DNA of 64,000 bases from Martelella alba. GTDB taxonomy: Bacteria; Pseudomonadota; Alphaproteobacteria; Rhizobiales; Rhizobiaceae. Under the pieces are notes generated by a model. It was not told the origin of the DNA. It made no database searches and saw nothing but the letters and a program-made list of their open reading frames with translations. The translations under genes and the position numbers were made by a program. The stretch covers positions 186,001 to 250,000 of the forward strand of contig NZ_VHLG01000002.1 in the NCBI RefSeq assembly GCF_006516955.1, given 5' to 3'. Below are positions 24,934-47,302 of the stretch, one piece after another (positions within the stretch are counted from its first letter, which is position 1; every line of letters begins with the position of its first letter).

Positions 24934-25971
24934 TCAGACATTTGGCAGATGCCTGATGGAAAGCTGGTGCGGCAGAAAGAATGCAGCCTTTGCCGTCTGC
25001 GGATCAAGCTGGCTCATCACCGCAGCACCATAGCGCTCGGCCGGGACAAAGGCCGAATTGAGCCAGGGGGCGACCCAGGCATTGAAAATCAGATCATCAA
25101 AGCCAAAAAAGACAAAGCGGCCGGGTGCTTCAAGACCAGCCTCATTCAGAGCGCGAAAAGCGCCATAGGCCAGCGTGTCACTCAGACAGAGAACGAGACA
25201 GGGCGTATCAGCCTGCGCAAGTGCCTGCCGCATGCCGCTGCGGCCAACCTCCAGCAGATTGGTGTCCGGCGCAGTGGCCAGTATCAGAGCGTCCTGCGGC
25301 AACCCCGCAGCGGAAAATTCCTCCCGGATGCCCTGAAACCTGAGTGTTGCAGCCGTGCGGTCGAGCGAGCCATGCAGCAGCACGGCGCGCCGGTAGCCGC
25401 GTTTCAGCACCGCACGCGCCACATCACGCCCGGCCTGAAGATTGTCCATGCCAGCATAGCAGGACGTCACATCCCCCGGATCGGGGCGATTGACGAAGAC
25501 TTTCGCAATGTCCGCCTGCCGGAGACGTTCCAGTTCCGGACTGTCAACCGCACCGAGCAGCACAAAGCCGCGCACCGACTGCGCGCGCATCTCGGCCAGA
25601 AATTCGTCCTGGACGTCGGCTTGCTCATGCGTATCGCTCAAGGCCATGACAAGACCACGTTCCCGCGTCGCCTGACCGATCGACGCGGTGATGGCCGCCA
25701 TGACCGGATTGATCAGCGATGCTGCCAGGACCGCAACAATCCGGCTCTCGCGCCGGCGCAGAGCCTGCGCTGCACCAGCGGGCCGATAGTTCAAGGCTGC
25801 GACAGCCGCCCGGACGCGCTTGACCGTCTCCGGCGATGCCTTGTTCGGGATCCCGTTGATCACACGCGACACGGTGGCAACCGAAACACCTGCATGTCTG
25901 GCGACCTGGCGGAGCGAAGCAGGGCCAGCTCCGGTCTTCGCTCCCGCATCTGAATTGTCCGAAGACGACAT
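24934..25971 (-). CDS. LacI-family transcriptional regulator (divergent to the secreted hydrolase)
   Basis: A 345-aa LacI regulator with a short acidic N-terminal tail. The helix-turn-helix and hinge read SLRQVARHAGVSVATVSRVINGIPNKASPETVKRV (about residues 21-55) and YRPAGAAQALRRRES. The sugar-binding domain starts about residue 77 (IVAVLAASLINPVMAAI). ATG 25971 has GGGAG 8 bp upstream. A perfect LacI-type operator lies 104 bp upstream, in front of the divergent hydrolase gene. Confidence 0.92.
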   Translation of the reverse strand: MSSSDNSDAGAKTGAGPASLRQVARHAGVSVATVSRVINGIPNKASPETVKRVRAAVAALNYRPAGAAQALRRRESRIVAVLAASLINPVMAAITASIGQATRERGLVMALSDTHEQADVQDEFLAEMRAQSVRGFVLLGAVDSPELERLRQADIAKVFVNRPDPGDVTSCYAGMDNLQAGRDVARAVLKRGYRRAVLLHGSLDRTAATLRFQGIREEFSAAGLPQDALILATAPDTNLLEVGRSGMRQALAQADTPCLVLCLSDTLAYGAFRALNEAGLEAPGRFVFFGFDDLIFNAWVAPWLNSAFVPAERYGAAVMSQLDPQTAKAAFFLPHQLSIRHLPNV

Positions 25972-26090: not shown

Positions 26091-26159
26091 TTATCTGGGA
26101 AGCTGCCGGCTGAAAGCCTTGAAGCAGATGGCAGCGGAGTGAATTCTGAGGAGTATGAA

Positions 26160-27494
26160 ATGCATGCAATAGGCAGATTGATATGCGGCGCAGTTTTGCT
26201 GGCTGCGACGGGAGTGCCGGCCTTGGCCGAAAACAGAATTGACGTAATCCGGCCGGATGCGCCGGCGCTTGCCCAATATGGAGACCAGACGGTAGGCGTA
26301 CGCGAACTATTACTGACCCACGAGAATCAGATCGACATCGCCAACGTCACCGCAGACATGACGTCACCGGATCAGATGCCGCATTATGATCGCCCGCTGC
26401 CGGTCGAAATCTGGTATCCGGCCCAAAGCGATGCAACCGGATCGACCACGCTGAAGGCCTATATGCGCGACGGCAAGACGCTGGTTGATCTTCATGGGAA
26501 AGCCATTCTGGACGCAGCACCGGCAAAGCCGGAAGCGGGTTTTCCGCTGGTAATCGTCTCGCATGGTTATCCCGGCAACCGCTTCTTGATGTCGCCGATT
26601 GCTGAAAATCTGGCATCCAAGGGCTATGTGGTCGTATCGATCGACCATACGGACACGACCTACAGCACCTTGCGATCCTTTCCCTCGGCACTGGTCAACC
26701 GCTCGGAAGACCAGATGTTCGTTCTCGATGAAATCGCCCGCCTGTCGGAAGATCCCGGCAGCTTCCTGCACGGCCTGGTCGACGCTGACGATACCGCGAT
26801 TGTCGGCTATTCGATGGGCGCCTATGGAACGCTCGTCTCCGTCGGCATCGGCCTGACGGATCAGGCGGTCGAGGCTACCGAGGGCTTTTGGCATGCGCCA
26901 GCCGGAACGCTGGAGCGCTATCGGGCAAGCTCTGACGCCTATCGCGACCGTTTTGATCCGCGTATCAAGACCGCCATCGTCTTTGCCCCGGCCGGTTATT
27001 CCTCGGGCTTCTTTGACGATGAGACACTGAAGGGCATCCGTGTCCCGACACTTTTCATCGGTGGCTCGAATGACGATACCGTCGGCTATGAGGATGGTGT
27101 TCTGCCGACATTCAGAGGTGCCAAGGGCGTCGATCGCGGCTTCCTGGTTTTTGAAGGCGCCAATCACAATGTCGGTGCGCCCATGCCCGCGCCCGAGGAA
27201 GCCTGGGTCTACGATCCCGACCTGAAATTCAATCTTGCGATGCACTATACCGATTTTGTCTGGGACAATGTGCGCATGAACAATATCGCCACCCACTTCG
27301 CCACCGCATGGCTCGGCAAATATCTGAAGGGCGATACCGCAATGCAGGACTATCTGGATCTGGTGCCGGTCTCCAATGATGGCGTTTACGATATGGCAGA
27401 CGGCAAACCCGCCGCGGACCACAGCTATTGGGCCGGCTTCCAGCCGCGGACCGCACAGGCACTGCGCTTTGATTTTCTGAGTGCCGATCAGTAA
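26160..27494 (+). CDS. secreted alpha/beta hydrolase (dienelactone hydrolase/PAF-acetylhydrolase-like)
   Basis: A 444-aa exported serine hydrolase. A Sec signal peptide (MHAIGRLICGAVLLAATGVPALA, residues 1-23) precedes the mature ENRIDVIRP. The oxyanion-hole segment is VIVSHGYPGNR near residue 127, the nucleophile elbow is GYSMGAYG near 219, and the acid and His are probably in IGGSNDDTVGYEDG and FEGANHNVGA (about 301-340). ATG 26160 has GAGGAG 7-9 bp upstream. The divergent LacI regulator and operator suggest sugar- or ester-induced expression; the substrate is unknown. Confidence 0.85.
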   Translation: MHAIGRLICGAVLLAATGVPALAENRIDVIRPDAPALAQYGDQTVGVRELLLTHENQIDIANVTADMTSPDQMPHYDRPLPVEIWYPAQSDATGSTTLKAYMRDGKTLVDLHGKAILDAAPAKPEAGFPLVIVSHGYPGNRFLMSPIAENLASKGYVVVSIDHTDTTYSTLRSFPSALVNRSEDQMFVLDEIARLSEDPGSFLHGLVDADDTAIVGYSMGAYGTLVSVGIGLTDQAVEATEGFWHAPAGTLERYRASSDAYRDRFDPRIKTAIVFAPAGYSSGFFDDETLKGIRVPTLFIGGSNDDTVGYEDGVLPTFRGAKGVDRGFLVFEGANHNVGAPMPAPEEAWVYDPDLKFNLAMHYTDFVWDNVRMNNIATHFATAWLGKYLKGDTAMQDYLDLVPVSNDGVYDMADGKPAADHSYWAGFQPRTAQALRFDFLSADQ

Positions 27495-27613: not shown

Positions 27614-27659
27614 TGAAATTTTCTTTCATCTTGAGAAACAAAATTTCATTTTGCATAAT
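27614..27659 (+). promoter_or_regulatory. uronate-locus regulatory module 1 with promoter
   Basis: Site a is TGAAATTTTCTTTCA (27614-27628). Site b starts 21 bp later (27635-27654, ending TTTCATTTTGC). A promoter fits inside: TTGAGA (27631-27636), 17-bp spacer, CATAAT (27654-27659). The same arrangement occurs at 28931 and 34578. It precedes the TRAP binding-protein gene. Confidence 0.75.
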
Positions 27660-27743
27660 CTATTCCATAAAAGTGATCCTTTCCAATTCATGCCGGCAGA
27701 GGTCATCGCCGGAGGAACGGGACCTTTAATTGGGAGTGAGACA

Positions 27744-28721
27744 ATGAAGAATACGACTTACGCACTTGTCGCGCTTGCGGCAGGTATCGCGCTATCATCG
27801 ACCGCAGCGAACGCGGCGGTGCGCCTGAAACTGGCGGATGCCCTTGCGGCAGACCATCCGACCAGCGTCATCCTGCAGCAATTCGCCGACGAGGTTGAGG
27901 AAAAGACCGACGGCGAGGTCAAGATCCGTCTTTACATGAATGCGGTTTTGGGCTCGGAACGCGAGGTTCTCGAACAGGTTCAAAACGGTGCGGTCGACAT
28001 TACGCGTGTCAGCGCCGCCAATCTGGAAAACTTCAATCCGGTCTACCAGGCCTTCACGCTTCCCTATCTGTTTTCCGATCAAGAGCACTTCTACAAGGTC
28101 ATGGACGGCCCCATTATCGATCCGGTTTATGACGCCTCGATCGAGAGCGGTTTCAAGGGCCTGACCTATTTCGACAGCGGTGCCCGCTCCTTCTACACCA
28201 AATCAAAATGCGTCGAGACGCCGGATGATCTGATCGGCCAGAAACTGCGCGTCATCAATTCGCACACCTCGATCCGGATGGTCGAACTGATGGGCGGCAT
28301 TCCGACACCGCTGCCCTATGGCGAAATCTACACCGCCCTGCAGCAGGGCGTCATCGACGGCGCTGAAAACAATCCCACAGCGCTGACGCTTGGCCGCCAT
28401 GGTGAAGTGGTCAAATGCTACTCGCTCGATGAACATCTGCGCATTCCCGACTTTCTGGTCATCTCCAACAGCGCCCTTGAAAAACTAACGGATGAGCAAA
28501 AGGCCATCATCAAGGAAGCCGCCGTTCACGCCACCGCAGCCCAGAAGCAGGTCTGGAATGAGGCGGTCGACGAAGCGATGCAGCAGATCGCCGATATGGG
28601 CGTCCAGATCGTTCATCCCGACAAGGCGCCGTTCCAGGAAAAGGTTGCGCCGCTGATCGAGGAATACAAGGCCAATCCGGCCATCGGCCAGCTGGTCGAC
28701 GCCATTCAGAACGCCCAGTAA
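27744..28721 (+). CDS. TRAP transporter substrate-binding protein (DctP family)
   Basis: A 325-aa periplasmic binding protein. The signal peptide MKNTTYALVALAAGIALSSTAANA (1-24) precedes AVRLKLADALAADHPTS. Family features are YFDSGARSFYTKSK near residue 142, the ligand-binding Arg in GQKLRVINS near 167, GGIPTPLPYGEIYTALQQGVIDGAEN near 184, and LVISNSALEKLT near 234. ATG 27744 has GGGAGTGAG upstream. Its permeases lie 6 kb away (34755-36582) beyond the catabolic genes, and all are preceded by the same regulatory module. Ligand inferred: uronate-containing mono- or oligosaccharide. Confidence 0.9.
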   Translation: MKNTTYALVALAAGIALSSTAANAAVRLKLADALAADHPTSVILQQFADEVEEKTDGEVKIRLYMNAVLGSEREVLEQVQNGAVDITRVSAANLENFNPVYQAFTLPYLFSDQEHFYKVMDGPIIDPVYDASIESGFKGLTYFDSGARSFYTKSKCVETPDDLIGQKLRVINSHTSIRMVELMGGIPTPLPYGEIYTALQQGVIDGAENNPTALTLGRHGEVVKCYSLDEHLRIPDFLVISNSALEKLTDEQKAIIKEAAVHATAAQKQVWNEAVDEAMQQIADMGVQIVHPDKAPFQEKVAPLIEEYKANPAIGQLVDAIQNAQ

Positions 28722-28930
28722 ACCACATTCGCTGTTTCTTCTGGAAGGCGCCCTTTCGCACAGATCGCGATGATGAAGGCGCCTTTCAACATTCTGAATG
28801 CAGGCAAGGCCGAAACATCCGGTCACAGCGTCTGTGTGGTTACCCCTTCCCATCATCGCGATCCCGATCGAAACCAGCTGCACCACCGGTGCAGCTGAAC
28901 TGCATTTGCGCATCGTCAACCGAACCGCAA

Positions 28931-28976
28931 TGAAATTTTATTTCATATTTCGCAACAGAATTTCATGTTGCATATT
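28931..28976 (+). promoter_or_regulatory. uronate-locus regulatory module 2 with promoter
   Basis: Site a is the perfect inverted repeat TGAAAT-TTT-ATTTCA (28931-28945). Site b (28952-28971) begins GCAACA and ends TGTTGC, also an inverted repeat. CATATT at 28971-28976 is a plausible -10. The 21-bp offset between sites is identical to modules 1 and 3. It precedes the GH105 gene. Confidence 0.75.
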
Positions 28977-29009
28977 ATTACCACAAACAACAATAGCGGA
29001 GGAAAACCG

Positions 29010-30098
29010 GTGCTCTCGGCAAAACACCTGAAACAGAATATCGACCTGGTGGTGGAGGGACTGAAGTCGCTGCGCGACGAGGGAAAATTCAACGAGCCCA
29101 ATCTGGATGGCTCGGCGGGCGATTATGTCAGCTTCAATTCCTGGGAATGGCCGCAAGGCGTTGGTCTCTACGGCCTGGCCCAGATGTGGCGCCGAACCGG
29201 CGACAGTTCGATCCGCACGCTTCTGGAAGACTGGTACGCAGCGCAGATCGAAAAGGGACTGCCGCCGCAGAATGTCAATACCACGGCCCCGATGCTGGCA
29301 CTTTCGCTTCTGTGGCAGGAAACCCGCGATCCCCGCTGGGAAACACCTTTGAAGGATTGGGCTGACCAGCTTCTGGCAGAAATGCCCCGCACACGCAGCG
29401 GCGGCTTTCAGCATAATGTTTCAGACAAGATCAATGATGACGAACTCTGGGACGATACGCTGTTCATGGTTGCGCTGTTTCTGGCCAGCTATGGCCAGGC
29501 GGCCGGGCGCAAGGATCTGGTGAGCGAGGCCGCCTTCCAGTTCCTCATACACACCTTCTATCTTGCAGAACATGAAACCGGGCTCTGGTTCCACGGCTGG
29601 ACCTTTGCCGGTCACCACAATTTTGCCCGGGCACGCTGGGCACGCGGCAATTCCTGGATTTCTGCCGGTGTTCTCGACCTGCTTGAGCTTGCCGAGCTTG
29701 ATCCGGCGACACAGCGCTATCTGAGCGAAGTTGTGAAGGCGCAGCTTGAAACACTGATTGGCTATCAGACTGAAAGTGGCGCCTGGCACACGCTGGTGGA
29801 TGATGCCTCGTCCTACGAGGAGATCTCGGCCACCGCTGCAATCGGTTATGCGCTCCTGAAGGGAGCGCGGCTTGGCATCGGCCCGGCAAGCTGGCGCGAT
29901 GCGGGTCTGAAGGCGCTGAATGTCACCTTGAAGAATATCGGCGAAGACGGAATCGTCGCCAATGTTTCCTACGGCACGCGCATGGGCCACGACCTTCAGT
30001 TCTACAAGGATATCCCGATACAGCCGACCGGCTATGGCCAGTCGATGGCGCTCCTGCTTCTGGTCGAAGCGCTGAATATCGCCCATGAGGAGGCATGA
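29010..30098 (+). CDS. glycoside hydrolase family 105 (unsaturated uronyl/rhamnogalacturonyl hydrolase)
   Basis: A 362-aa (alpha/alpha)6-barrel hydrolase that adds water to the 4,5-double bond of unsaturated uronic acids at oligosaccharide ends, releasing 5-dehydro-4-deoxyuronate, the KduI substrate. The acid/base Asp lies in DELWDDTLFMVALFL (Asp148/149), and RARWARGNSWISAG near residue 206 is the other conserved block. The GTG at 29010 is chosen because GGAGGA lies 6 bp upstream; an ATG at 28965 lacks a site and lies over the promoter module. No signal peptide, so it acts in the cytoplasm on imported oligosaccharides. Confidence 0.88.
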   Translation: MLSAKHLKQNIDLVVEGLKSLRDEGKFNEPNLDGSAGDYVSFNSWEWPQGVGLYGLAQMWRRTGDSSIRTLLEDWYAAQIEKGLPPQNVNTTAPMLALSLLWQETRDPRWETPLKDWADQLLAEMPRTRSGGFQHNVSDKINDDELWDDTLFMVALFLASYGQAAGRKDLVSEAAFQFLIHTFYLAEHETGLWFHGWTFAGHHNFARARWARGNSWISAGVLDLLELAELDPATQRYLSEVVKAQLETLIGYQTESGAWHTLVDDASSYEEISATAAIGYALLKGARLGIGPASWRDAGLKALNVTLKNIGEDGIVANVSYGTRMGHDLQFYKDIPIQPTGYGQSMALLLLVEALNIAHEEA

Positions 30099-30100
30099 TC

Positions 30101-30937
30101 ATGTTTGAAGATACGCGCTATTCCGTCTCGCCCAGAGATGTCAGCAGCTATTCCAATGAACGTCTGCGTGAGGAGTTTCTGCTCGACAGACTGTTCGTCG
30201 CCGACCAACTGCAAATGGTCTATACCCATGTCGACCGCATGATCATTGGCGGCTTTCTCGCCGTCAGCGAAGAGGCAGAGATCGCCGACGGTTCCGCCGT
30301 GGGAACACCCGGCTTCTTCGATGCCCGCGAAATGGGTATCGCCAATCTCGGCGGCACCGGCACCGTCACCGTCGACGGCCAGGTCTTCACACTTGAACAC
30401 CGGGATATTCTTTATGTCGGCCGCGATACGAAATCGGTCAGGCTTTCCGGTAACGACCCGGACAGGCCTGCGGCATTCTACATGAACTCGGTTCCCGCCG
30501 GCTATGCCGTACCCTCAGCCCTGATCCGCCAGTCGGAATCAAAACCGGTGACCATGGGGGATGAGGCCCATGCCAACAAGCGCACGCTCAGAATGTATAT
30601 TCACCCGGAAGTGTCGCCCAGCTGCCTTTTGTTGATGGGCATCACCGAAACAGCCCCGGGCAGCATCTGGAATACCGAACCGCCACATGTGCATGAGCGC
30701 CGTATGGAGGCCTATGTCTATTTCAACATGGCACCGGAAGACCGGGTCATGCATTTCATGGGCGAGCCGAAACAGGTGCGCAATATCGTCGTGGCCGATC
30801 GCCAGGGCATTCTGTCGCCGGCCTGGTCCATCCATATGGGCGCAGGAACAGGCCCCTACTGCTTCGTCTGGGGTATGACAGGTGAGAACAAGGCCTATAA
30901 CGATGTCTCGCCCGTTGCCGTGAAAGATCTGCTGTGA
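30101..30937 (+). CDS. kduI: 5-dehydro-4-deoxy-D-glucuronate isomerase
   Basis: Interconverts 5-dehydro-4-deoxy-D-glucuronate and 3-deoxy-D-glycero-2,5-hexodiulosonate in pectin and glycosaminoglycan catabolism. Starting at ATG 30101 gives 278 aa, the usual length, and puts the zinc ligands at His196, His198, Glu203 (PHVHERRMEAYVYF) and His245 (IHMG), the same numbers as in the E. coli enzyme as I know it. An ATG 6 bp earlier overlaps the GH105 stop, but the ribosome binding site GAGGAGG is better spaced for 30101. The stop overlaps the next start (TGATG). Confidence 0.95.
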   Translation: MFEDTRYSVSPRDVSSYSNERLREEFLLDRLFVADQLQMVYTHVDRMIIGGFLAVSEEAEIADGSAVGTPGFFDAREMGIANLGGTGTVTVDGQVFTLEHRDILYVGRDTKSVRLSGNDPDRPAAFYMNSVPAGYAVPSALIRQSESKPVTMGDEAHANKRTLRMYIHPEVSPSCLLLMGITETAPGSIWNTEPPHVHERRMEAYVYFNMAPEDRVMHFMGEPKQVRNIVVADRQGILSPAWSIHMGAGTGPYCFVWGMTGENKAYNDVSPVAVKDLL

Positions 30938-33441
30938 TGAAACATGAAACGCAAATTGCCGACGCTGGCGCCATGCGCCGGCCGCTCCCGAAAGGGGGCC
31001 CGATCTGCTACTGGCACGTCTCTGCCATTGCCGAGACAGAATATAACGTCGCCGATACCACCATGTCCGGCCATATGGACGCCCAGTTCTTCCTGACCAA
31101 GGAAAAGAACTTCATTCCGCATGAATATCCCTGCCGCACAGAATTCCTGAAAGAAAGGCACGGCAAGCGTCCCGTTCTCGTAGACAGGCAGCGCCCGGCG
31201 CGGGTCTGGACGCCGTTCGGCTCACCACGGGTTGATCTGTCCGGCTTCTGGTTTCGCGCCACCGCCGTTTCGGCCTGGGCCGATACCCGCATCGAGGCCG
31301 AACAGGCGGGAACGGCGCGCCTGAAGCTCAGCTGCTGCGGCGGTGCCGTACTGTTCGTCAATGGCGTCGAGGTGGGGCATATGAGTGTCTATCAACGCAA
31401 TTTCGAAACAGCGGCCGAATTCGAGGTCGCCCTCGAGGCAGGCCTGAACGATATCACGGTCTTCTTCGATGACCTTGCCGAACGCGATGCCCGCTACTTC
31501 TTCGAGCTTGACTATATCGACGGCCCGGAAGCCCAAATTTCGCTTGATGTACCATGTAAGGACAGCCTTGCCGACGAGATGGAAGCGCTGCTGGAAACGA
31601 TGCATTTCGAGCATCCGGCCTATTCTTCCGGAACCGTCGCCTTCAATTGCCCGATCACGGTCAGTGAGGATCTTGATGTCGAGATCGCAGTCGCAGGCGA
31701 TTTCCTTGCCGAGGAGCATGACATCTTCACCAGCCGCCTGGCATCAGGATCGCCACGGCTTGAGGTCGGGGATATCTCGGCATTCCACAGCGACTTCAGA
31801 CATTTCGATGTCCGTCTGTCGTCCGGTGGCCTGACGCTGTCGCGCCCGTTCACGGTTGAGATCGCCCGGTGCGAGGACCAGGGCCGTCCGCCGGAAACCC
31901 TCGACTTACGGATTGATGAAGCGCTCCACCATGTTGCCGACAAGGGTTATGCCGATGCGATTTCGGCGCTCGCCCGGCTTGGCCTCGGCCTTGCCGGCAC
32001 GCGGACCGAAAAGATGATCGAAGTCTCGCTACCGAAAATCGAAAACTGCCACGACTGCGCCGATTTCCATCTTGTGCCGCTGCTGTTCGGCCGGATCCGC
32101 TTCGCCGGTCTGCTCTCGGACACCATCCGCGCACGCATTGATGCAGCGACACTCAACTTCCGCTTCTGGATGGATGAGCCCGGCAATGACGTGCAATGGT
32201 ATTATTCGGAAAATCACGCGCTTCTGTTTCACACGGCCGCCTATCTTGCCGGTCACTTCCACGCCGACAAGGTCTTTATCCGCTCCGGCCTTACGGGAGA
32301 GGAGCAATCGGCACGCGGCGCAGCGCGACTTCGCGCCTGGTTCGATCATTTCGAGTCCTGGGAGATGGCAGAATTCAACTCGGTTCCCTATTTTCCGATT
32401 GATCTGAAAGGCCTGACAACGCTTTACGCACTCGCCCATGACGATGATATCAGGACGCGGGCGGGCAATGCCATTATGCGGCTGATTGCCATTGTTGCAG
32501 CCTCGGCCCATCAGGGCACATTGACGGCAGCACAGGGACGCTCATACGAGCATACACTGATGGCGGCCCGGACCAGCGAATTATCGGCGATCGCCCGTGT
32601 CCTGTGGTCGCGCGGATTTTACGGCCGGACGTTCCAGACCCTGCCGCAATTCCTGCTGTGCCTGCGCGATCATGGTCTCACCCTCCCCGAGGAAATCCGG
32701 GCGGTCGCCTGCCTTTCAGGTGATAGCGCGCGGGAATGGACCTTCTCGCAGGGCGAGAACCGGTTTGCCCATCTTTATCACTACAAGACGGAAGACGCGG
32801 CCATGGGGTCGCTCGCCCGCTATCGCTGGAGCGAGTGGGGCTATCAGGAAACGGTGCTGCAGCTCAGGCTTGGCCATAATCCCGATGCCCAGATCTGGAT
32901 CAACCATCCCGGCGAGGTCATTCACTGCGGCTTCGGCCGTCCGTCCTATTGGGGCGGGTGTGGTTCACTGCCGCGCGTTCACCAGTATCGCGGCCTGGCC
33001 CTCGTCATGTTCGAAACCCATGAAGGGCAACCGGAATTCAGCCATATCTGGTTTCCCGAGCAGGTTTTCGACGAGGCGATCCGGCAGGACCAGCGCGCCG
33101 CTGCCCGTTCGGGCAGAGCCATGGTCGTGATCTCGGGATCCGGGCCACTCGAAGCCGTTCAGACCGGTCCCACGGCAGGCATGGAAATCCGCCAGAACGG
33201 GCGGAAAACCGCCTGGCTGATCCGGCTGGGTGTGGCGGAAACGGCGCAGGGAACGCTTGCCGCTTTCCAGGCACGGTTCAGCGTGCTCAAACCGGAAGAG
33301 GCCAGCAATGGCACGATCGTGGTCAATGATCCGGAATATGGCGTGGTCCGCTTCGGTGACGACGGTACGATCCGTGCCGAGGGGCGCAGACTTGACCCGG
33401 CGGACTGGACCATTGAAGGCAGCACCCATATCTTCGCCTGA
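30937..33441 (+). CDS. large uncharacterised protein of the uronate locus, predicted toroid-plus-beta-sandwich carbohydrate-active enzyme
   Basis: I do not recognise this 834-aa protein. Residues about 90-200 look like a beta-sandwich sugar-binding module (ARLKLSCCGGAVLFVNGVEVG, then LEAGLNDITVFFDD). Residues about 320-640 are helix-rich with the striking block NDVQWYYSENHALLFHTAAYLAG (YYSENH at 422-427), recalling (alpha/alpha) toroid lyases and hydrolases. The last 190 residues look beta-rich. That order is seen in several polysaccharide lyase families. No signal peptide, so a cytoplasmic enzyme acting on imported oligouronides is the simplest inference. ATG 30937 overlaps the kduI stop (TGATG), giving translational coupling. 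Confidence 0.6.
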   Translation: MKHETQIADAGAMRRPLPKGGPICYWHVSAIAETEYNVADTTMSGHMDAQFFLTKEKNFIPHEYPCRTEFLKERHGKRPVLVDRQRPARVWTPFGSPRVDLSGFWFRATAVSAWADTRIEAEQAGTARLKLSCCGGAVLFVNGVEVGHMSVYQRNFETAAEFEVALEAGLNDITVFFDDLAERDARYFFELDYIDGPEAQISLDVPCKDSLADEMEALLETMHFEHPAYSSGTVAFNCPITVSEDLDVEIAVAGDFLAEEHDIFTSRLASGSPRLEVGDISAFHSDFRHFDVRLSSGGLTLSRPFTVEIARCEDQGRPPETLDLRIDEALHHVADKGYADAISALARLGLGLAGTRTEKMIEVSLPKIENCHDCADFHLVPLLFGRIRFAGLLSDTIRARIDAATLNFRFWMDEPGNDVQWYYSENHALLFHTAAYLAGHFHADKVFIRSGLTGEEQSARGAARLRAWFDHFESWEMAEFNSVPYFPIDLKGLTTLYALAHDDDIRTRAGNAIMRLIAIVAASAHQGTLTAAQGRSYEHTLMAARTSELSAIARVLWSRGFYGRTFQTLPQFLLCLRDHGLTLPEEIRAVACLSGDSAREWTFSQGENRFAHLYHYKTEDAAMGSLARYRWSEWGYQETVLQLRLGHNPDAQIWINHPGEVIHCGFGRPSYWGGCGSLPRVHQYRGLALVMFETHEGQPEFSHIWFPEQVFDEAIRQDQRAAARSGRAMVVISGSGPLEAVQTGPTAGMEIRQNGRKTAWLIRLGVAETAQGTLAAFQARFSVLKPEEASNGTIVVNDPEYGVVRFGDDGTIRAEGRRLDPADWTIEGSTHIFA

Positions 33442-33523: not shown

Positions 33524-34552
33524 CTATCGCCGCTGCCTTGGCGCAGCAGCGGATCCACCCTCTCCCATCGTGCAGGAGAGCTCCATTCTGCGCGGCAGCC
33601 AGGTTTCATTGTCAAGGTGATCGCGCAACATGTCGAGGGCCGCTGCCCCGACTTCACGCATCGGAATCTGAACCGATGTCAGCGGCGGATCGAGAAAATC
33701 ACTCTGCGGCAGGCCATCAATACCCACCACCGACACATCGTCGGGCACGGAAAGGCCAAGCGAGCGAAGACCGAGAATGGCCCCGGCGGCAAGACTGTCA
33801 CCGGCACACAGAACAGCCGTGAAGATGGGTGGCTTGCCATCAATGTAACGCCGCAGCGCATCAATCGCCGCATCGGGCGTCCAGTCGGCAGCGTCCACCA
33901 CCAGATCCCGCCAGTGGACACCCGGAATGGTTTCGATTTCATCCCGCCACCCTTCAAGACGGCGCAGGATCGTGCGCCGCCCGTGGCGGGCCAGAAACAG
34001 AATGCGCTCATGGCCAAGCGATTTCAGGTAACGTGTGGCAAGGGATGCCGCGGCGCGGTTATGGGGCGCAATACTGGAGAGCGCCATCAGCGGATCATCC
34101 CCGTTTACAAGCAGAACCGGCTTGGGAAAGGAACGGGCCGGCGTCAGCATCTCATCTTCATCAATCGTCAGCATCAAGACCCCGGCAATCTCGTCATCGC
34201 CAGCGGCTTCCGCAAGCATCTGCCGCTCTTCTTCCGGGTCGGAAATGGCCCGGGTCACCAGTGTCAGCCCCAGCACTTCGGCGCGCGCACGCATGCCTTC
34301 CAGCACGAAAGCGGTGAACTGATTGCGCTGGTAATCAATCATCGCACTGGCGCTGGCGGCAACAATGACCTTGTAGCCGGCAATCGAGGTCGGCACGTGA
34401 TAATTCTGCGACAGAGCGGCTTCAAGGATCTTCTCCCGAAGTTCGGGCCGGACGCCGGGGGTGCCGGAAAGCGCGCGTGAGGCCGTTGATGGCGAAACCC
34501 CGCAATAGCGGGCTAGATCACTGAGGCGGACGCGCTTGCTGGTCTTTTTCAT
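33524..34552 (-). CDS. LacI-family transcriptional regulator of the uronate locus
   Basis: A 342-aa LacI regulator. The helix-turn-helix is VRLSDLARYCGVSPSTASRALSGTPGVRPELREK (about residues 8-41), and the effector domain begins near 62 (KVIVAASASAMIDYQR). ATG 34552 has GGGAGTG about 8 bp upstream; a GTG 9 bp earlier is possible. It is divergent from the TRAP permeases across module 3. It is the only regulator in the locus, so it probably reads the repeated modules, although those sites lack the central CG of typical LacI operators. Confidence 0.9.
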   Translation of the reverse strand: MKKTSKRVRLSDLARYCGVSPSTASRALSGTPGVRPELREKILEAALSQNYHVPTSIAGYKVIVAASASAMIDYQRNQFTAFVLEGMRARAEVLGLTLVTRAISDPEEERQMLAEAAGDDEIAGVLMLTIDEDEMLTPARSFPKPVLLVNGDDPLMALSSIAPHNRAAASLATRYLKSLGHERILFLARHGRRTILRRLEGWRDEIETIPGVHWRDLVVDAADWTPDAAIDALRRYIDGKPPIFTAVLCAGDSLAAGAILGLRSLGLSVPDDVSVVGIDGLPQSDFLDPPLTSVQIPMREVGAAALDMLRDHLDNETWLPRRMELSCTMGEGGSAAAPRQRR

Positions 34553-34577
34553 TAAAGTCACTCCCTTTGCCTCAATA

Positions 34578-34623: not shown

Positions 34624-34754
34624 AGGTTTCATATTCGCCACGCCCGCGGAGGAACGCGTTACGATGGGCCGGCGGAAAACAGCCACGAATGGAATGGTCG
34701 GGCGAGGCCCTGCGGCAGCTCCTGCGACAGTTCCGTGTGGCATGGAGGAAGCCC

Positions 34755-35258
34755 ATGCTGGACAAGATAAAAACAACACTTGAAAAAATACTGCTCTACC
34801 TGACCTCGGCCATGCTGGCAGTCATGGTCTGCCTGATGCTCTGGCAGGTCTTTACCCGTTACGTGCTGGCATCGCCGGCGCTCTATACCGAAGAGCTGCT
34901 CCGCTTCATGATGATCTGGATGGCCTTCCTCGGATCTGCCTATGCATTCGGAACCCGGCAGCACCTTTCCCTGGTCTTCATGGTCGATGCCATGTCGGGG
35001 CGCAAACAGCTCATTCTTATGCTGATCAATGATGCAGTCATCCTGCTTTTCGCGCTTCTGATCCTGCTGCCCGGCGGCATCAAGGCGGTGACGTCATCGA
35101 TGGAGCAGTTCTCGCCGATCATGCGCATTCCCATTGGCGAGGTCTACATGATCATGCCCATCACTGCGGTGCTGATCGCCATATTGCAAATTCTGAACAT
35201 GGCCGACCTGTTGCGAAACCACAAGCATCGGCACCTTCAGGCTGAAGGGACCCTCTGA
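34755..35258 (+). CDS. TRAP transporter small permease (DctQ family)
   Basis: A 167-aa membrane protein with four hydrophobic segments, of the TRAP small-subunit family (LWQVFTRYVLASPALYTEELLRFMMIWMAFLGSAYAF near residues 31-67 is the conserved core). ATG 34755 has GGAGGAAG 4-7 bp upstream and gives the usual family length; the frame is open 22 codons further up. It is followed after 1 bp by the large permease. Confidence 0.9.
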   Translation: MLDKIKTTLEKILLYLTSAMLAVMVCLMLWQVFTRYVLASPALYTEELLRFMMIWMAFLGSAYAFGTRQHLSLVFMVDAMSGRKQLILMLINDAVILLFALLILLPGGIKAVTSSMEQFSPIMRIPIGEVYMIMPITAVLIAILQILNMADLLRNHKHRHLQAEGTL

Positions 35259-35259
35259 A

Positions 35260-36582
35260 ATGGACGTCATATTTGATTATGTGGATGAGACGGTTTTTGC
35301 CTCCATCCTTCTCTTCGGCCTGTTTTTCTGGATGCTGGCGCAGGGCATTGCCATTTCGGTGGCCATCGCCGTTTCATCGATCATTACAGGGCTGTTTTTC
35401 CTTCCGGCCAAGGTCGCGTTCTTCGTCGCCGCGCAGAAGATGTTTTCCGGCCTCGACAGCTTCACGCTGCTGGCCATTCCCTTCTTCATTCTGGCCGGCA
35501 ACATCATGAACAAGGGCGGCATCGCCATCCGGCTGGTCAATCTTGCCAAACTGCTTGGCGGACGCCTGCCGGGTGCGCTGGCGCATACCAATGTCATTGC
35601 CAACATGCTGTTCGGTTCGATTTCCGGATCGGCGATTGCCGCGGCCGCAGCCGTTGGCGGCACCATGGCGCCTTTGCAGAAGAAGGAAGGCTATGACCCG
35701 ACATTCTCGGCCGCCGTCAATATCGCCTCGGCACCTTCGGGCATCCTCATTCCGCCAAGCGGACCACTGATCCTGTTCTCGCTCGTCTCCGGCGGCACGT
35801 CGATTTCAGCCCTCTTCATCGGCGGCTACGTACCTGGCGTGATGATGGGGCTGGCGGTGATGATTGTTGCCGGCATCATCGCCAAGCGCCGCAATTTCCC
35901 GATTGCCGATCGCCCAGGTGCGGGTGAGGCCATCAGGATCGTCTGGCAGGCCCTGCCATCGCTGTTCATGGTCGTCGTTGTCATTGGCGGTATCGTCATC
36001 GGTGCCTTCACCGCAACCGAAGGGGCTGCTGTCGCAGTCCTCTACTCCTTCGTCCTGTCGCTGATCTACCGCCTCGCGACCTGGCGGGAATATGTCGAAG
36101 TGCTGAAAAGCTCGATGGTCACCAGCGCGGTGATCCTCTTTCTGATCGCCGCTTCGGGCATCATGTCCTATGTGATGACGATCACCGGCATTCCCGACGC
36201 CATTGCCGACGCCCTGCTGACCTTCAAGAACCCGATCGTGATCCTGCTGATCATGAACATCTGCCTGCTGATCATCGGCTTCTTCATGGACCTGACACCT
36301 GCGGTTCTGATCTTCACCCCGATCTTTCTGCCGATCGCAACCCAGGTCGGCATGGATCCGGTTCAGTTCGGCCTGATGATGATCTTCAACCTCGGCATCG
36401 GCTCGATGACGCCTCCGGTTGGATCCGTGCTGTTTGTTGGTTGCTCGATTGCCGGCGTTACCATCGAGAAGGTCGCAAAGCCTTTGCTGCCTTTCTTCAT
36501 CACACTGTTCATCGCCTTGATGATGGTGACCTATATTCCGGCACTGACGCTCGGACTGCCCCGCCTGCTCGGCCTGATGTAA
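35260..36582 (+). CDS. TRAP transporter large permease (DctM family)
   Basis: A 440-aa ion-coupled permease with about 12 membrane segments. DctM signatures include FTLLAIPFFILAGNIMNKGGIA near residue 68, GALAHTNVIANMLFGSISGSAIAAAAAVGGTMAP near 107, and INIASAPSGILIPPSGPLILFSLVSGGTSI-like sequence near 152. With the DctQ subunit and the 27744 binding protein it makes a sodium-driven importer. A strong terminator follows. Confidence 0.92.
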   Translation: MDVIFDYVDETVFASILLFGLFFWMLAQGIAISVAIAVSSIITGLFFLPAKVAFFVAAQKMFSGLDSFTLLAIPFFILAGNIMNKGGIAIRLVNLAKLLGGRLPGALAHTNVIANMLFGSISGSAIAAAAAVGGTMAPLQKKEGYDPTFSAAVNIASAPSGILIPPSGPLILFSLVSGGTSISALFIGGYVPGVMMGLAVMIVAGIIAKRRNFPIADRPGAGEAIRIVWQALPSLFMVVVVIGGIVIGAFTATEGAAVAVLYSFVLSLIYRLATWREYVEVLKSSMVTSAVILFLIAASGIMSYVMTITGIPDAIADALLTFKNPIVILLIMNICLLIIGFFMDLTPAVLIFTPIFLPIATQVGMDPVQFGLMMIFNLGIGSMTPPVGSVLFVGCSIAGVTIEKVAKPLLPFFITLFIALMMVTYIPALTLGLPRLLGLM

Positions 36583-38521: not shown

Positions 38522-38723
38522 GCGGTCTGCACCTGACCGCCAGCGGCAATCCCGAGAGTAGACAGAACCGGTTTCACCACCAGGCGAATGAATTATTTGC
38601 CAGACAGCAGCCAGAAGCATGGCGATGGCACCACAGCTGCGCTCAGGGCTTTGGCAAGCCATGCTCCACCTTGATTGACAGGCCCCGTTGCCTTGGCTAC
38701 TCAGAACCAAAGGAACGGCGCCC

Positions 38724-39677
38724 ATGGCAAAACGCAACGGCTTATCTTCTCGGCTTGACGACGCCGCCCGGGCGGGCTGGCTTTACTACGTCGCTGGCCG
38801 GACCCAGGATGAAATCGCCGCTGCCATGGGCATTTCCCGCCAGAGCGCCCAGCGCCTTGTGTCGCTCGCCATGTCGGAACGTCTGATCAAGGTGCGGCTC
38901 GACCATCCGATTGCCGAATGCCTGGCGCTGGCTGAACGGCTGAAAGAGACCTATGGTCTGGTTCAGGTCGAGATCGTTCCCTCAGACCCGGCCTCCGACA
39001 GCACCACGACGGGTATTGCCGAAGTCGGGGCTGCCGAAATCGAACGCTGGCTGAAGCGGACCGAACCGCTGGTTCTGGCGATTGGCACCGGACGCACGCT
39101 GCGTGCCGCCGTTGACCAGCTTTCGCCGATGGATTGCCCGCAGCACCGGATCGTGTCCCTGACCGGCAATATCAGCCCCGATGGTTCGGCAGCCTATTAC
39201 AACGTCATCTTTTCGATGGCCGACGCCATCAATGCCCGCCATTTTCCGATGCCACTGCCGGTACTGGTGTCATCGGCCGAAGAACGCGAAATCTTTCAGG
39301 CGCAGCCGCTGGTCCGCCCGACCATAGCGCTCGGCGCCAAGGCCGATGTCACCTTTGTCGGCATTGGCGAGCTTGGCCGCACGGCACCGCTTCTGCTCGA
39401 TGGCTTTCTCACCGCTGCGGAAATGGATGAGCTGATCTCGGCTGGTGCAGCGGGTGAGATCTGCGGCTGGATCTTCGACCGCAATGGCGCGCTGCTCGAT
39501 CACCCGATCAATGAACGGGTCGCCTCCATTCCGCTCCCCACCCATGAAGGTGCAGTGGTCTTCGGCCTTGCCCGCGGGCGGCGCAAGCACGCCTCGATCC
39601 GCGCCGCTCTCGAAGGAGGCCATATCAACGCCCTGATCACTGACGAGGATGCCGCACGCTTCCTGCTCGGGCGCTGA
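38724..39677 (+). CDS. SorC-family transcriptional regulator of the polyol operon
   Basis: A 317-aa sugar-binding regulator. The N-terminal helix-turn-helix is RAGWLYYVAGRTQDEIAAAMGISRQSAQRLVSLA (about residues 17-50), followed by the SorC effector domain (LAIGTGRTLRAAVDQLSP near 125, FVGIGELGRTAPLL near 212, GEICGWIFDRNGALLDHPIN near 248). ATG 38724 has AAAGGA upstream. It sits directly before the sorbitol/mannitol operon, as in other rhizobia, and is its likely regulator. A possible promoter, TTGACA-N17-TACTCA, lies at 38675-38703. Confidence 0.92.
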   Translation: MAKRNGLSSRLDDAARAGWLYYVAGRTQDEIAAAMGISRQSAQRLVSLAMSERLIKVRLDHPIAECLALAERLKETYGLVQVEIVPSDPASDSTTTGIAEVGAAEIERWLKRTEPLVLAIGTGRTLRAAVDQLSPMDCPQHRIVSLTGNISPDGSAAYYNVIFSMADAINARHFPMPLPVLVSSAEEREIFQAQPLVRPTIALGAKADVTFVGIGELGRTAPLLLDGFLTAAEMDELISAGAAGEICGWIFDRNGALLDHPINERVASIPLPTHEGAVVFGLARGRRKHASIRAALEGGHINALITDEDAARFLLGR

Positions 39678-39712
39678 TCACCGCCACCGACGCCGTTCCC
39701 GATCACCCAGCG

Positions 39713-39780
39713 AGAGCGCCGTGCGTCCTTTTGGACGCACCAGGACGCTCAATCTTATTGAATTTACGCATCGTTCTTTT
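39713..39780 (-). repeat. rhizobial intergenic repeat, family 1, copy 2 (reverse)
   Basis: Reverse complement of the right two thirds of the copy at 5489-5592: GAGCGCCGTGCGTCC-tttt-GGACGCAC, CAGGACGCTC, an ATTGAAT spacer and GCATCGTTCTTTT, with only a few changes. It abuts family 2 copy D, making a composite block. Confidence 0.85.
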
Positions 39781-39782
39781 CG

Positions 39783-39957
39783 CTGACGTCATGCCTGTGC
39801 TTGGTCCACAGGCATCCAGCCGACGCGCGTCTTCACGGCGAAAGATCCTTGTATCCGATGCCCTGAAGCGCCTGGATCCCCGTGACGAGCACGGGGATGA
39901 CGAGGGAAGGCCCACCCCAAACAGGCAATTTGAATGACTGTGTCAGCGCTCTGAAAG
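39783..39957 (-). repeat. dispersed intergenic repeat, family 2, copy D (reverse)
   Basis: Begins CTGACGTCATGCCTGTG (reverse complement of the CACAGGCATGACGTCAG end of copies A and B), and includes CATCCAGCCG, TGCCCTGAAG, the ATCCCCGTG/CACGGGGAT hairpin and a degenerate tail ending GCTCTGAAAG. The rest of the interval up to 40020 holds nothing recognisable. Confidence 0.85.
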
Positions 39958-40026
39958 CCGGATCACACCGGCCTCCTTTTCGGTTTACCCGATTGTTTTT
40001 CTGCTCTCAGGACAAGAACTTATGAC

Positions 40027-40091
40027 TTTTGCCCACGATTGGGGCATTCGCCCACTTGACAAAACGCAGCCAAATTGTGAGTAATCGCCCA
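40027..40091 (+). promoter_or_regulatory. promoter and candidate SorC operators of the polyol operon
   Basis: TTGACA (40056-40061), 18-bp spacer, AGTAAT (40080-40085). An inverted repeat TGCCC-acgattg-GGGCA (40030-40046) lies upstream, and the heptamer TCGCCCA occurs at 40048-40054 and 40085-40091, flanking the promoter. These are plausible sites for the SorC regulator. Confidence 0.6.
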
Positions 40092-40128
40092 TGCATTTTG
40101 CATTTGCTCAATTCTCTGGGAGGAAGAA

Positions 40129-41448
40129 ATGAGATTGAAGACACTGTTCCTGGGCGCCTGCTCCGTTCTCGCCATTTCCGGTTTCACATCCGCTTCGGCC
40201 GAAACGCTGACCATTGCCACCGTCAATAACGGCGACATGATCCGCATGCAGAAGCTCACCGATGATTTCACCGCCAGTCATCCCGACATTCAGCTGGAAT
40301 GGGTGACGCTGGAAGAAAATGTTCTGCGCCAGAAGGTCACCACGGATATAGCCACCAAGGGCGGTCAGTATGACGTCATGACCATCGGCAATTACGAAGT
40401 GCCGATCTGGGCCAAACAGAACTGGCTGATGCCGCTCAACGATATGCCCGCCGATTATGATGCCGCCGACCTGCTTCCCGCCATTGCCGGCGGGCTTTCC
40501 GTCGACGGCACGCTTTATGCGGCGCCCTTCTATGGCGAAAGCGCCATGGTGATGTATCGCACCGATCTCGCTGAAAAGGCTGGCGTCACCATTCCTGCAG
40601 AACCGACCTGGGATGAGATCAAGACGGCTGCCGATGCCATGACCGACAAGGACAATGGCATCTATGGCATCTGCCTGCGCGGCAAGGCCGGATGGGGCGA
40701 GAACATGGCCTTCATCACCGCCATGTCCAATTCCTATGGCGCCCGCTGGTTCGACATGGACTGGAAGCCGCAATTTGAAAGCGATGAATGGAAGGCGACC
40801 CTCACCGACTATCTGACGCTGATGAAGAATGACGGCCCGCCCGGCGCATCATCGAACGGCTTCAACGAAAATCTGGCGCTGTTCCAGCAGGGCAAATGCG
40901 GCATGTGGATCGATGCCACGGTCGCCGCCTCCTTCGTGACGGACCCGGCAGAATCCAAGGTTGCCGACAAGGTCGGCTTCGCACTGTTCCCGCAAAAGGG
41001 CGATCTCGGCAATCGTGGCAACTGGCTGTGGTCATGGAACCTCGCCATTCCGGCCTCCACCACCAAGGGCGATGCCGCCAAGGCCTTCGTCGCTTGGGCA
41101 ACCTCCAAACATTACACCGATCTCGTCGCCTCCAAGGAAGGCTGGCGCGCGGCACCGCCCGGCACCAGAACCTCGCTCTACGACAACCCTGATTACCAGA
41201 AGGCCGCCCCCTTCGCCAAGATGACGCTGGACAGCATCAACGCGGTCGATACGTCAAAGCCCTCGGTTCAGGACATTCCCTATACCGGCGCGCAATTCGT
41301 CTCGATCCCGGAATTCCAGGGTATCGGTACGGCCGTCGGCCAGCAGTTCTCCGCAGCCCTTGCCGGCAACGTGACAGCGGATCAGGCGCTTTCCAGCGCC
41401 AACCAGCTGACCACGCGCGAAATGATGAAGGCCGGCTACATCAAGTAA
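40129..41448 (+). CDS. smoE: sorbitol/mannitol ABC transporter substrate-binding protein
   Basis: A 439-aa periplasmic binding protein. The signal peptide MRLKTLFLGACSVLAISGFTSASA (1-24) precedes ETLTIATVNNGDMIRMQKL. The polyol subgroup pattern includes YDVMTIGNYEVPIWAKQNWLMPL near residue 82, YAAPFYGESAMVMYRTDLAEKAG near 133, and CGMWIDATVAASFV near 257. ATG 40129 has GGGAGGA upstream. First gene of the smoEFGK-smoS-mtlK operon; the 145-bp gap to the permease holds two GC-rich hairpins. Confidence 0.92.
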   Translation: MRLKTLFLGACSVLAISGFTSASAETLTIATVNNGDMIRMQKLTDDFTASHPDIQLEWVTLEENVLRQKVTTDIATKGGQYDVMTIGNYEVPIWAKQNWLMPLNDMPADYDAADLLPAIAGGLSVDGTLYAAPFYGESAMVMYRTDLAEKAGVTIPAEPTWDEIKTAADAMTDKDNGIYGICLRGKAGWGENMAFITAMSNSYGARWFDMDWKPQFESDEWKATLTDYLTLMKNDGPPGASSNGFNENLALFQQGKCGMWIDATVAASFVTDPAESKVADKVGFALFPQKGDLGNRGNWLWSWNLAIPASTTKGDAAKAFVAWATSKHYTDLVASKEGWRAAPPGTRTSLYDNPDYQKAAPFAKMTLDSINAVDTSKPSVQDIPYTGAQFVSIPEFQGIGTAVGQQFSAALAGNVTADQALSSANQLTTREMMKAGYIK

Positions 41449-41466
41449 CGACTGATACGCCTCCCG

Positions 41467-41545
41467 GCGGCCGGGGATCTCCTCCGGCCGCATATGTGAC
41501 CGTCAAGCTCACGTCCTGTCCGTCCGGCCCTGCCGGGCGGGCCGG
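41467..41545 (+). other. two GC-rich stem-loops between smoE and smoF
   Basis: GCGGCCGG (41467-41474) pairs with CCGGCCGC (41484-41491). CCGGCCC (41524-41530) pairs with GGGCCGG (41539-41545). No T-runs. Their position suggests mRNA stabilisation that keeps binding protein in excess over permease. Confidence 0.6.
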
Positions 41546-41593
41546 CAGCGCCGTTTCCAACAGGAACGGGACAAAAGACCGGGACAAACCAAC

Positions 41594-42466
41594 ATGGCCA
41601 CCACTCATACCAGACACGCCGCACGCCTGATGATGGCACCGTCCGTCATCCTTCTGCTTTTGTGGATGATCGTGCCGCTGGCGATGACAATCTACTTCTC
41701 GTTCCTGCGCTACAATCTTCTGATGCCGGGAACGGAAAGCTTTGCCGGCTTCATGAATTATCGTTTCTTTCTCACCGATCCGGCTTTCTTTCAGGCGCTC
41801 GGCAACACGCTGATCCTGGTTGGCGGCGTGCTGTTTGCCACGGTTGCCGGCGGCATTTTGCTGGCGCTCTTGCTGGATCAGCCGATGTTTGGCCAGGGGA
41901 TCGTGCGCATTCTCGTCATTGCGCCCTTCTTCGTCATGCCGACCGTCTCGGCACTCGTCTGGAAGAATATGCTGATGAACCCGGTCAACGGGCTGTTTGC
42001 CTGGGTGGCGCAGACCCTTGGCTTCCAGCCGGTCGACTTTCTCTCGGTCATGCCGCTCACCTCGATCAGCATCATTGTCGCCTGGCAATGGCTGCCCTTC
42101 GCGACCCTGATCCTTCTGACTTCACTGCAGTCGCTCTCGGAGGAACAGAAGGAAGCGGCGGAAATGGACGGCGCCAATGCGCTGGCGCGGCTGATCTATA
42201 TCGTGCTGCCGCATATGGCGCGTGCGATCACCGTTGTCGTGCTGATCGAGACGATTTTCCTGCTTTCGGTCTTTGCTGAAATCCTCGTCACCACCAATGG
42301 CGGGCCCGGCACGGAAACCACCAATCTCACCTATCTCGTCTACATGCAGGCGCTGTTGCAATTCGATGTCGGCGGCGCATCGGCCGGCGGCATCGTCGCT
42401 GTCATCCTCGCCAATATCGTCGCGATCTTCCTGATCCGGATGATCGGCAGGAATCTGGAGGACTGA
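41594..42466 (+). CDS. smoF: sorbitol/mannitol ABC transporter permease
   Basis: A 290-aa MalF-type permease with about six membrane segments. The EAA loop is EEQKEAAEMDGANALARLIYIVLPHMARAI near residues 181-210, and the N-terminal MAPSVILLLLWMIVPLAMTIYFSFLRYNLLMPG is typical of polyol permeases. Two bp separate it from smoG. Confidence 0.92.
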   Translation: MATTHTRHAARLMMAPSVILLLLWMIVPLAMTIYFSFLRYNLLMPGTESFAGFMNYRFFLTDPAFFQALGNTLILVGGVLFATVAGGILLALLLDQPMFGQGIVRILVIAPFFVMPTVSALVWKNMLMNPVNGLFAWVAQTLGFQPVDFLSVMPLTSISIIVAWQWLPFATLILLTSLQSLSEEQKEAAEMDGANALARLIYIVLPHMARAITVVVLIETIFLLSVFAEILVTTNGGPGTETTNLTYLVYMQALLQFDVGGASAGGIVAVILANIVAIFLIRMIGRNLED

Positions 42467-42468
42467 TC

Positions 42469-43299
42469 ATGGCACGCAAGGTTACCACCAACCGCAAGAT
42501 CGCCTTCACCCTGCTGGCCTGGGCAATCGGTCTTCTGATCTTTTTCCCGATCCTCTGGACGGTGATCACCAGCTTCAAGACCGAAAGCGAGGCGGTTGCG
42601 ACGCCGCCCGCCTTCCTGTTCTTCCACTGGACGCTGGAGAATTATGCCGAGGTGCAGTCGCGCTCGAACTATTTCCACCACTTCCTCAACTCGGTGGCGA
42701 TTTCCTTCGGCTCCACGCTGGTGGGTCTTGTCATCGCCGTTCCGGCCGCCTGGGCGATGGCGTTCTCCCCGACAAAGCGCACCAAGGACGTGCTGATGTG
42801 GATGCTCTCGACCAAGATGCTCCCTGCCGTCGGCGTTCTGGTGCCAATCTACATCATCTTCCGTGATCTCGGCCTGCTCGACACGAGAATCGGTCTGATC
42901 GTGGTGATGATGCTGATCAACCTGCCGATCATGGTGTGGATGCTCTACACCTATTTCAAGGAAATCCCCGGCGAGATTTTGGAAGCCGCGCGCATGGATG
43001 GGGCGACGCTGGCCAAGGAACTGGTCTATGTGCTGACGCCGATGGCCATTCCCGGCATTGCCTCGACACTGCTCCTCAACATCATCCTGGCCTGGAACGA
43101 GGCCTTCTGGACCCTCAACCTCACGGCCTCGAAAGCAGCGCCGCTGACCGCCTTCATCGCTTCCTATTCAAGCCCGGAAGGCCTGTTTTACGCAAAACTC
43201 TCCGCCGCCTCGACGATGGCCATCGCGCCCATCGTGATCCTCGGCTGGTTCAGCCAGAAGCAGCTCGTGCGCGGGCTCACCTTCGGCGCGGTTAAATAA
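42469..43299 (+). CDS. smoG: sorbitol/mannitol ABC transporter permease
   Basis: A 276-aa MalG-type permease. The opening [33 protein letters not shown] and the EAA loop [33 protein letters not shown] (about residues 168-200) are diagnostic. GGAGG lies before ATG 42469. It ends 11 bp before smoK. Confidence 0.92.
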
Positions 43300-43310
43300 G
43301 GACAAGACCA

Positions 43311-44305
<995 letters not shown>

Positions 44306-44309
<4 letters not shown>

Positions 44310-45082: not shown

Positions 45083-45115
45083 GCGCCCATCCGCGTTACG
45101 CACTGGAGTAGAAGA

Positions 45116-46600: not shown

Positions 46601-46610
46601 TGACGAAATC

Positions 46611-47282: not shown

Positions 47283-47302
47283 GGAGACAACGGGAAGCAG
47301 CA

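Follow-up and report, generated by a model that had tools for sequence, protein, structure and literature searches.

Genes for GH105 enzymes and for KduI are usually taken as the inside half of pathways that have an extracellular lyase. According to the accessible part of PMC12838403, the GH105 enzyme YteR acts on an unsaturated uronoside to free 5-keto-4-deoxyuronate (DHU), the compound that KduI isomerises. Among lyases with a helical toroid, nine enzymes of families PL12, PL15, PL17, PL21, PL33, PL35 and PL39 have Asn-Tyr-His sites with spacings of 53-57 and 130-166 residues, the values for Atu3025 and PL21 being counted from the His found where the others have Asn (PMC12088678, Table 4, and PMC11848413, both in part). 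Here we describe an unnamed protein of 834 amino acids (aa) encoded beside a GH105 gene and kduI in Martelella alba. The window analysed is a stretch of 64,000 nucleotides (contig NZ_VHLG01000002.1, positions 186,001-250,000) from an assembly of 5.0 Mb, and all coordinates below refer to it. From its sequence, predicted structure and gene neighbourhood we consider the protein, with a probability of about three in four, to be an oligouronide lyase that acts by beta-elimination in the cytoplasm and belongs to a family without a name. Its fold would be of the toroid-plus-beta-sheet type, and its site like that of PL12, PL15, PL17, PL21, PL33, PL35 and PL39.

The open reading frame (ORF) of this predicted, probably intracellular lyase occupies 30937-33441 on the + strand, 834 codons plus stop. 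Since 37 homologues align with its product at 28-84% identity, the ORF is more than chance. The TGATG overlap with kduI that the first-pass annotation had reported is real, as the TGA of kduI (30935-30937) and the ATG of the ORF (30937-30939) have one base in common; a GTG at 30934 is an alternative in-frame start. The neighbours had also been named correctly, and Pfam and NCBIfam uphold both a GH88/105 unsaturated uronyl hydrolase-like gene (28965-30098, +) and kduI, encoding 5-dehydro-4-deoxy-D-glucuronate isomerase (30095-30937, +), whose first 4 bases (30095-30098) are also the last of the GH105 gene.

The fold was predicted with AlphaFold2. The model of the full protein, built from 6 sequences, was poor (predicted local distance difference test, pLDDT, 58.3), and that of residues 313-834 reached a pLDDT of 70.6 and a predicted TM-score (pTM) of 0.63, with 12 helices of at least 8 residues followed by a beta domain. 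The order expected by the first-pass annotation, N-terminal beta structure, helical middle and beta C-terminus, is seen in these models. A first beta-rich part would span about residues 110-205 (31264-31551), as suggested by the low-confidence full-length model, a weak PA14 match (Pfam, E 0.17 at a threshold of E 1) and the GH2 matches of the full-length Foldseek search, and the full-length model places a second at about residues 230-310 (31624-31866). The model of residues 313-834 and Foldseek delimit a helical toroid at about residues 322-592 (31900-32712) and a C-terminal beta domain at about residues 600-820 (32734-33396), all these parts being on the + strand. When residues 313-834 were compared with the PDB by Foldseek, all 18 matches at E<=1e-3 were toroid-type lyases (17) or human dermatan sulfate (DS) epimerase 1 (one). 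The lyases comprise GAGases II and VII, Alg17c, other PL17 or alginate lyases, Atu3025, Dp0100 and chondroitin ABC lyase I; a hyaluronate lyase follows at rank 19 (E 7.4e-3), and further down the list is mixed. At the level of fold class, the protein is thus predicted to have a helical toroid followed by an antiparallel beta-sheet domain, as in the PL8, PL12, PL15, PL17, PL21, PL33, PL35 and PL39 lyases; a predicted fold lacking the toroid would have spoken against the original proposal. A search of a viral fold library yielded 4 matches at E<=1e-3, and no lyase was named among them.

The conserved residues may point in the same direction. Two sequence sets were used, one of 38 members and one of 9 very diverse members from Proteobacteria, Bacillota and Haladaptatus, both including the window protein. 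Invariant in 38/38 and 9/9 are N426-H427 of a SENH motif (32212-32217), the proposed carboxylate neutraliser; Y485 (32389-32391), the proposed catalytic acid/base; Y537 of GRxY (32545-32547), an alternative or second active-site tyrosine; and H657 of NHP (32905-32907), which would be the catalytic His in the beta domain, all encoded on the + strand. H432, R535, W672 and H703 are likewise invariant in the 9 diverse members. The motif that had been singled out at residues 418-435 is present, one residue earlier than stated (N417-A434), and its SENH contains two of the most conserved residues. N426, Y485 and H657, all invariant and spaced by 59 and 172 residues, follow one another as Asn, Tyr and His do in the known lyase triad, at roughly similar distances, and may be its counterpart. 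When residue types were permuted among the positions invariant in the 9 diverse members, 1.6% of 20,000 shuffles contained such a triad, with windows of 50-62 and 120-180 that were set post hoc. PL8 and PL23, in which His precedes Tyr according to the table in the accessible part of PMC12088678, were omitted from the spacing comparison. In the model of residues 313-834, N426 and Y485 each directly precede a helix, the two helices being separated by one other, and adjoin loops of low confidence; H657 closes the fifth C-terminal strand, with a long loop next (full-length model). His401 of GAGase II lies on top of an omega loop after strand 5 (PMC12088678, in part). A second triad, N481-Y537-H703 (56 and 166), was considered and discarded: a leucine is aligned with N481 in the archaeal homologue, and N481 is not invariant among the 9 diverse members.

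The gene context provides the third line of evidence. From part of the matches of the family-, plasmid- and order-level searches we compared 88 loci distinct by DNA, 59 of branch A and 29 of branch B or more distant; the loci are mutually related, and many of branch A span only about 1.5 kb on each side. A GH88/105 gene is found in the stretch in 79/88 loci (branch A, 53/59; others, 26/29), a far stronger link than the single locus on which it was first suspected, and in 77/88 (51/59 and 26/29) it has the same orientation and is no more than 1 kb away. By comparison, kduI lies within 100 bp in 54/59 branch A loci and in 0/29 of the others. The importer changes while the pair of lyase candidate and GH105 stays. 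A tripartite ATP-independent periplasmic (TRAP) importer is present in the close relatives within Martelella and also in Pseudosulfitobacter and Salipiger (both of which have GH105 6.1 kb off on the opposite strand), a UgpC-type ATP-binding cassette (ABC) importer in many rhizobia, Pannonibacter, Phyllobacterium and Gemmobacter, and a major facilitator superfamily (MFS) importer in Catenovulum; in Subdoligranulum both an MFS importer and an ABC binding protein are near the family gene. Annotations of 9 plasmid records were used here, two further records having none. GH28 genes occur in 13 of the 22 branch B loci with wide flanks, which suggests pectin-derived substrates for this branch.

The family lies outside every sequence family with which we compared it. 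No match was found in Pfam at E 0.01, in NCBIfam at E 1 or among PDB sequences at E 10, and profile searches of the family against the PDB gave no significant match, those obtained beginning at E 0.048 and being judged chance; a characterised family of other function, which would have spoken against the original proposal, was thus not found in these collections. HH comparison with Hepar_II/III proteins, GH78, GH105, GH28 and controls revealed no significant link. The protein is not a GH105 or GH88 enzyme by Pfam (no Glyco_hydro_88 match), no Pfam rhamnosidase was among the families matched, and no PL27 chain was among the PDB sequence or profile matches, the PDB copy searched being one that we take to hold a PL27 structure. 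As the lyase families covered by these sequence tests were those with PDB structures or with Pfam or NCBIfam models, a recent CAZy number, from PL36 onward, might already cover the family. Its fold class and mechanism are probably of a known kind. A literature search found no paper that we recognised as describing the family, which does not establish that it is unpublished.

Members were detected in 69/394 genomes of the taxonomic family of the window, 9/398 genomes across the phylum and, by profile search, 19/297 genomes of the order; the genome of the window is included in each count and some genomes are common to several searches. Among plasmids, 200 of 72,556 records carry the family, and the best 40 of these 200 matches are all labelled 'hypothetical protein' or unannotated. 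Five loci are in named genomes, four of Martelella (74-84% identical) and one of a Formivibrio bin (53%). The family divides into two main branches, A with 48-84% identity to the window protein and B with 28-30%, and has more distant members in Haladaptatus, Catenovulum and Subdoligranulum. The Haladaptatus homologue aligns at 32% identity along 205 aa and at 25% along 245 aa; it starts near the toroid, and most of the N-terminal part is absent. One homologue (G298, contig 1, 2597187-2599653) has in-frame stops in two overlapping matches and is apparently a decaying copy. Among viral contigs, 19 stretches fit a pattern and 0 encode a relative, and a search of phages with the archaeal homologue as sole query gave no match.

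Several observations weigh against a lyase. The TM-scores of the 18 matches are only 0.26-0.42, from a model built on 6 sequences, so the assignment is to a fold class and there is no close match. Neither by sequence nor by profile could the protein be tied to a lyase in Pfam, NCBIfam, PDB profiles or HH comparison, and the comparison with the Hepar_II/III sets was negative. The spacings of 59 and 172 both fall just beyond the published ranges, PL8 and PL23 are arranged differently, and Y537 could be the catalytic tyrosine instead of Y485. With the full-length model, GH2 enzymes make up most of the best 50 of 149 Foldseek matches at E<=1e-3, while the PL17 lyase Alg17c occupies 5 rows, the first at rank 9, and a single GH78 enzyme is also present; we read the GH2 matches as matching the N-terminal sandwiches, the aligned ranges not being part of the output. 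Finally, 9/88 loci (six of branch A, three others) have no GH105 in the stretch.

The first-pass annotation, whose interpretation is supported in part, had left a choice between an oligouronide lyase and an exo-hydrolase, and the fold and the GH105 pairing favour the former and disfavour the latter. An inverting glycoside hydrolase with an alpha-barrel and a beta-sandwich (GH78-, GH146- or GH92-like), trimming an oligosaccharide before or after GH105, would agree with the GH78 rhamnosidase 3w5n at rank 12 and the many GH2 enzymes of the full-length search, with the GH78 set being top of ten HH comparisons, non-significantly (E 0.019, probability 2.4%), and with the acids D373, D376, D413, E425, E479 and D489, which are invariant in the 9 diverse members. 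Among the 38 members there are also matches to MalQ_N (2/38, best E 7.7e-4), to a beta-galactosidase galactose-binding domain (4/38, best 0.08) and to PA14 (7/38, best 0.012). However, when only the catalytic part is compared, each of the 18 matches at E<=1e-3 is to a lyase or to DS-epimerase, the best E values of GH146 and GH92 are 0.018 and 0.082, and the GH78 signal in HH comparison is gone (E 0.56), an ABC binding-protein control scoring better (E 0.034). Furthermore, the GH105 partner requires an unsaturated substrate, and a hydrolase makes none; we consider a hydrolase unlikely.

Still less probable is a uronyl C5-epimerase using the proton chemistry of DS-epimerase 1 to prepare a substrate for another enzyme. 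The human enzyme (6hzn) is at rank 7 with the top query TM-score among the matches listed, 0.42, and fold and residues are common to lyases and DS-epimerase according to the accessible part of PMC11848413, but GH105 and KduI use unsaturated uronates and their product, and an epimerase supplies neither. A non-catalytic or regulatory accessory protein of a uronate operon, which would fit the loci without GH105 and the fact that no activity report was found for any member, is the least probable alternative, given polar residues that the model positions around the mouth of the toroid and that do not vary between bacteria and an archaeon, and given the GH105 genes that four genomes with GH105-less A loci carry elsewhere, even if three of these lie beside a branch B copy. 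These four genomes were the ones checked out of the six A cases (the short-flank loci L074 and L075 were left out): three have GH105 beside their own branch B copy (46-47%), the fourth has a 63% copy on another contig, and a kduI (42-43%) was detected in three of these genomes.

Regarding its location, the lyase candidate appears to lack an export signal and would be cytoplasmic. In a crude N-terminal hydropathy scan it scores 0.92 (family median 0.65, top 1.57, n=38), whereas two ABC binding proteins reach 2.05 and 2.19, in agreement with the absence of a signal peptide proposed before. The scan is weak because a cytosolic sugar kinase scores high (1.84) and the TRAP binding protein low (1.18); the listed start of the latter is probably too far upstream.

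If the protein is such a lyase, a small acidic oligosaccharide would be imported by TRAP in the window and by UgpC-type ABC or MFS importers in relatives, and the TRAP and MFS importers suggest a substrate of about disaccharide size. In the site, N426, perhaps with H427, would neutralise the uronate carboxylate, and H657 and Y485 would act as base and acid, removing the C5 proton and breaking the C4-O bond. We infer this lyase chemistry and the residue roles, with beta-elimination giving a 4,5-unsaturated uronate being proposed because of the GH105 pairing. GH105 would then hydrolyse the 4,5-unsaturated uronoside to DHU, and KduI plus a KduD-type reductase would convert DHU to 2-keto-3-deoxygluconate, an order of steps that follows the GH105 and KduI reactions known from PMC12838403, as far as accessible.

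The last of these steps may use another reductase in the window organism, because kduD is absent from the locus and the closest KduD-like protein of the genome is only about 40% identical to Phyllobacterium KduD. In three Martelella relatives a kduD (56-59% to Phyllobacterium KduD) lies between the TRAP binding protein and GH105 (L002:7109-7852, L003:7104-7847 and L006:2831-3574); the gene is missing from the corresponding place in the window (28721-28965) and in L004, and a fourth Martelella relative (L125) also has a short-chain dehydrogenase between these genes. The window GH105 also scores 535.7 bits with the NCBIfam model 'beta-galactosidase BglB', above its cut-off of 420, an activity label at odds with the kduI neighbourhood, on which a literature search gave nothing relevant. 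The TRAP genes flank the locus, with the substrate-binding protein DctP (27651-28721, +; Pfam) upstream and the small permease DctQ (34689-35258, +) and large permease DctM (35260-36582, +; Pfam) beyond a LacI-type regulator (33524-34561, -; Pfam). Upstream of the TRAP binding protein there is an alpha/beta hydrolase related to PETase-like/PAF acetylhydrolase families (26139-27494; Pfam), and a 334-aa candidate ORF at 24949-25953 has no Pfam or NCBIfam match and is overlapped by a 411-aa ORF on the opposite strand. A likely sugar-alcohol cluster at 38688-48865 contains a sugar-binding regulator, an ABC binding protein, permease and ATPase, a short-chain dehydrogenase, a mannitol dehydrogenase and an FGGY kinase. 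Other lyase-like genes lie near two homologues. An 804-aa DUF4962 + Hepar_II_III_C protein (L125:3456-5870, -), encoded among ABC transporter genes with the orthologue of the window protein some 10 kb away, is a candidate second lyase in that region. In Haladaptatus, some 8 kb separate the archaeal homologue from a 1305-aa heparinase II/III-type protein (L083:65-3982, -), whose gene has sugar oxidoreductase and isomerase genes around it.

A wider proposal can be made tentatively, and we hold it with some doubt: across Proteobacteria, Bacillota and a haloarchaeon, the family may desaturate imported saturated uronosides inside the cell and pass them to GH105, the pair serving behind TRAP, ABC or MFS importers as a 'desaturate, then hydrolyse' replacement of a classical uronidase. 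The adjacency of the lyase-candidate gene to GH105 in 77/88 loci with varied importers suggests that the lyase step is intracellular in many plant- or alga-associated bacteria. If true, a gene now labelled 'hypothetical protein' would have a testable function, the toroid lyases would gain a family with extra N-terminal domains, and a route toward new lyase specificities would be available.

Among the known systems, the PL35 GAGases (8KHV, 8KHW) are the best Foldseek match of the protein (E 2e-7), with an (alpha/alpha)6 toroid plus beta-sheet domain and the same order of Asn, Tyr and His, at spacings of 54 and 155-156 compared with 59 and 172. They differ in acting on glycosaminoglycans and, by the description in the accessible part of PMC12088678, in consisting of toroid and beta-sheet only, without N-terminal sandwiches. 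The PL17 oligoalginate lyases (Alg17c) provide several of the top fold matches, again with Asn, Tyr and His in this order (published spacings 57 and 155). The locus described here has GH105 and KduI, whereas alginate products take a different route. The PL15 exo-lyases (Atu3025), represented by 3a0o and 3afl among the fold matches, resemble the protein in that about 126 residues precede the toroid in 3A0O and in an Asn-His tandem (N336-H337 in 6LJA), and differ in a Tyr-His spacing of 165-166 vs 172. With none of PL35, PL17 and PL15 was sequence similarity found. The PL27 rhamnose-glucuronate lyases, which desaturate glucuronate, share an N-terminal beta-sandwich and an (alpha/alpha)6 barrel, but end at the barrel by the description in the accessible part of PMC8377490, whereas the protein of M. 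alba is predicted to have a large beta domain after it. Unlike the other three families, PL27 is not among the fold matches listed. In role, the protein can be likened to the PL22 oligogalacturonide lyase Ogl, a beta-propeller, which is a lyase for oligomers and feeds KduI. OGL is named in the accessible part of PMC12838403. The route of Ogl differs from the one proposed here in that the GH105 step is not needed.

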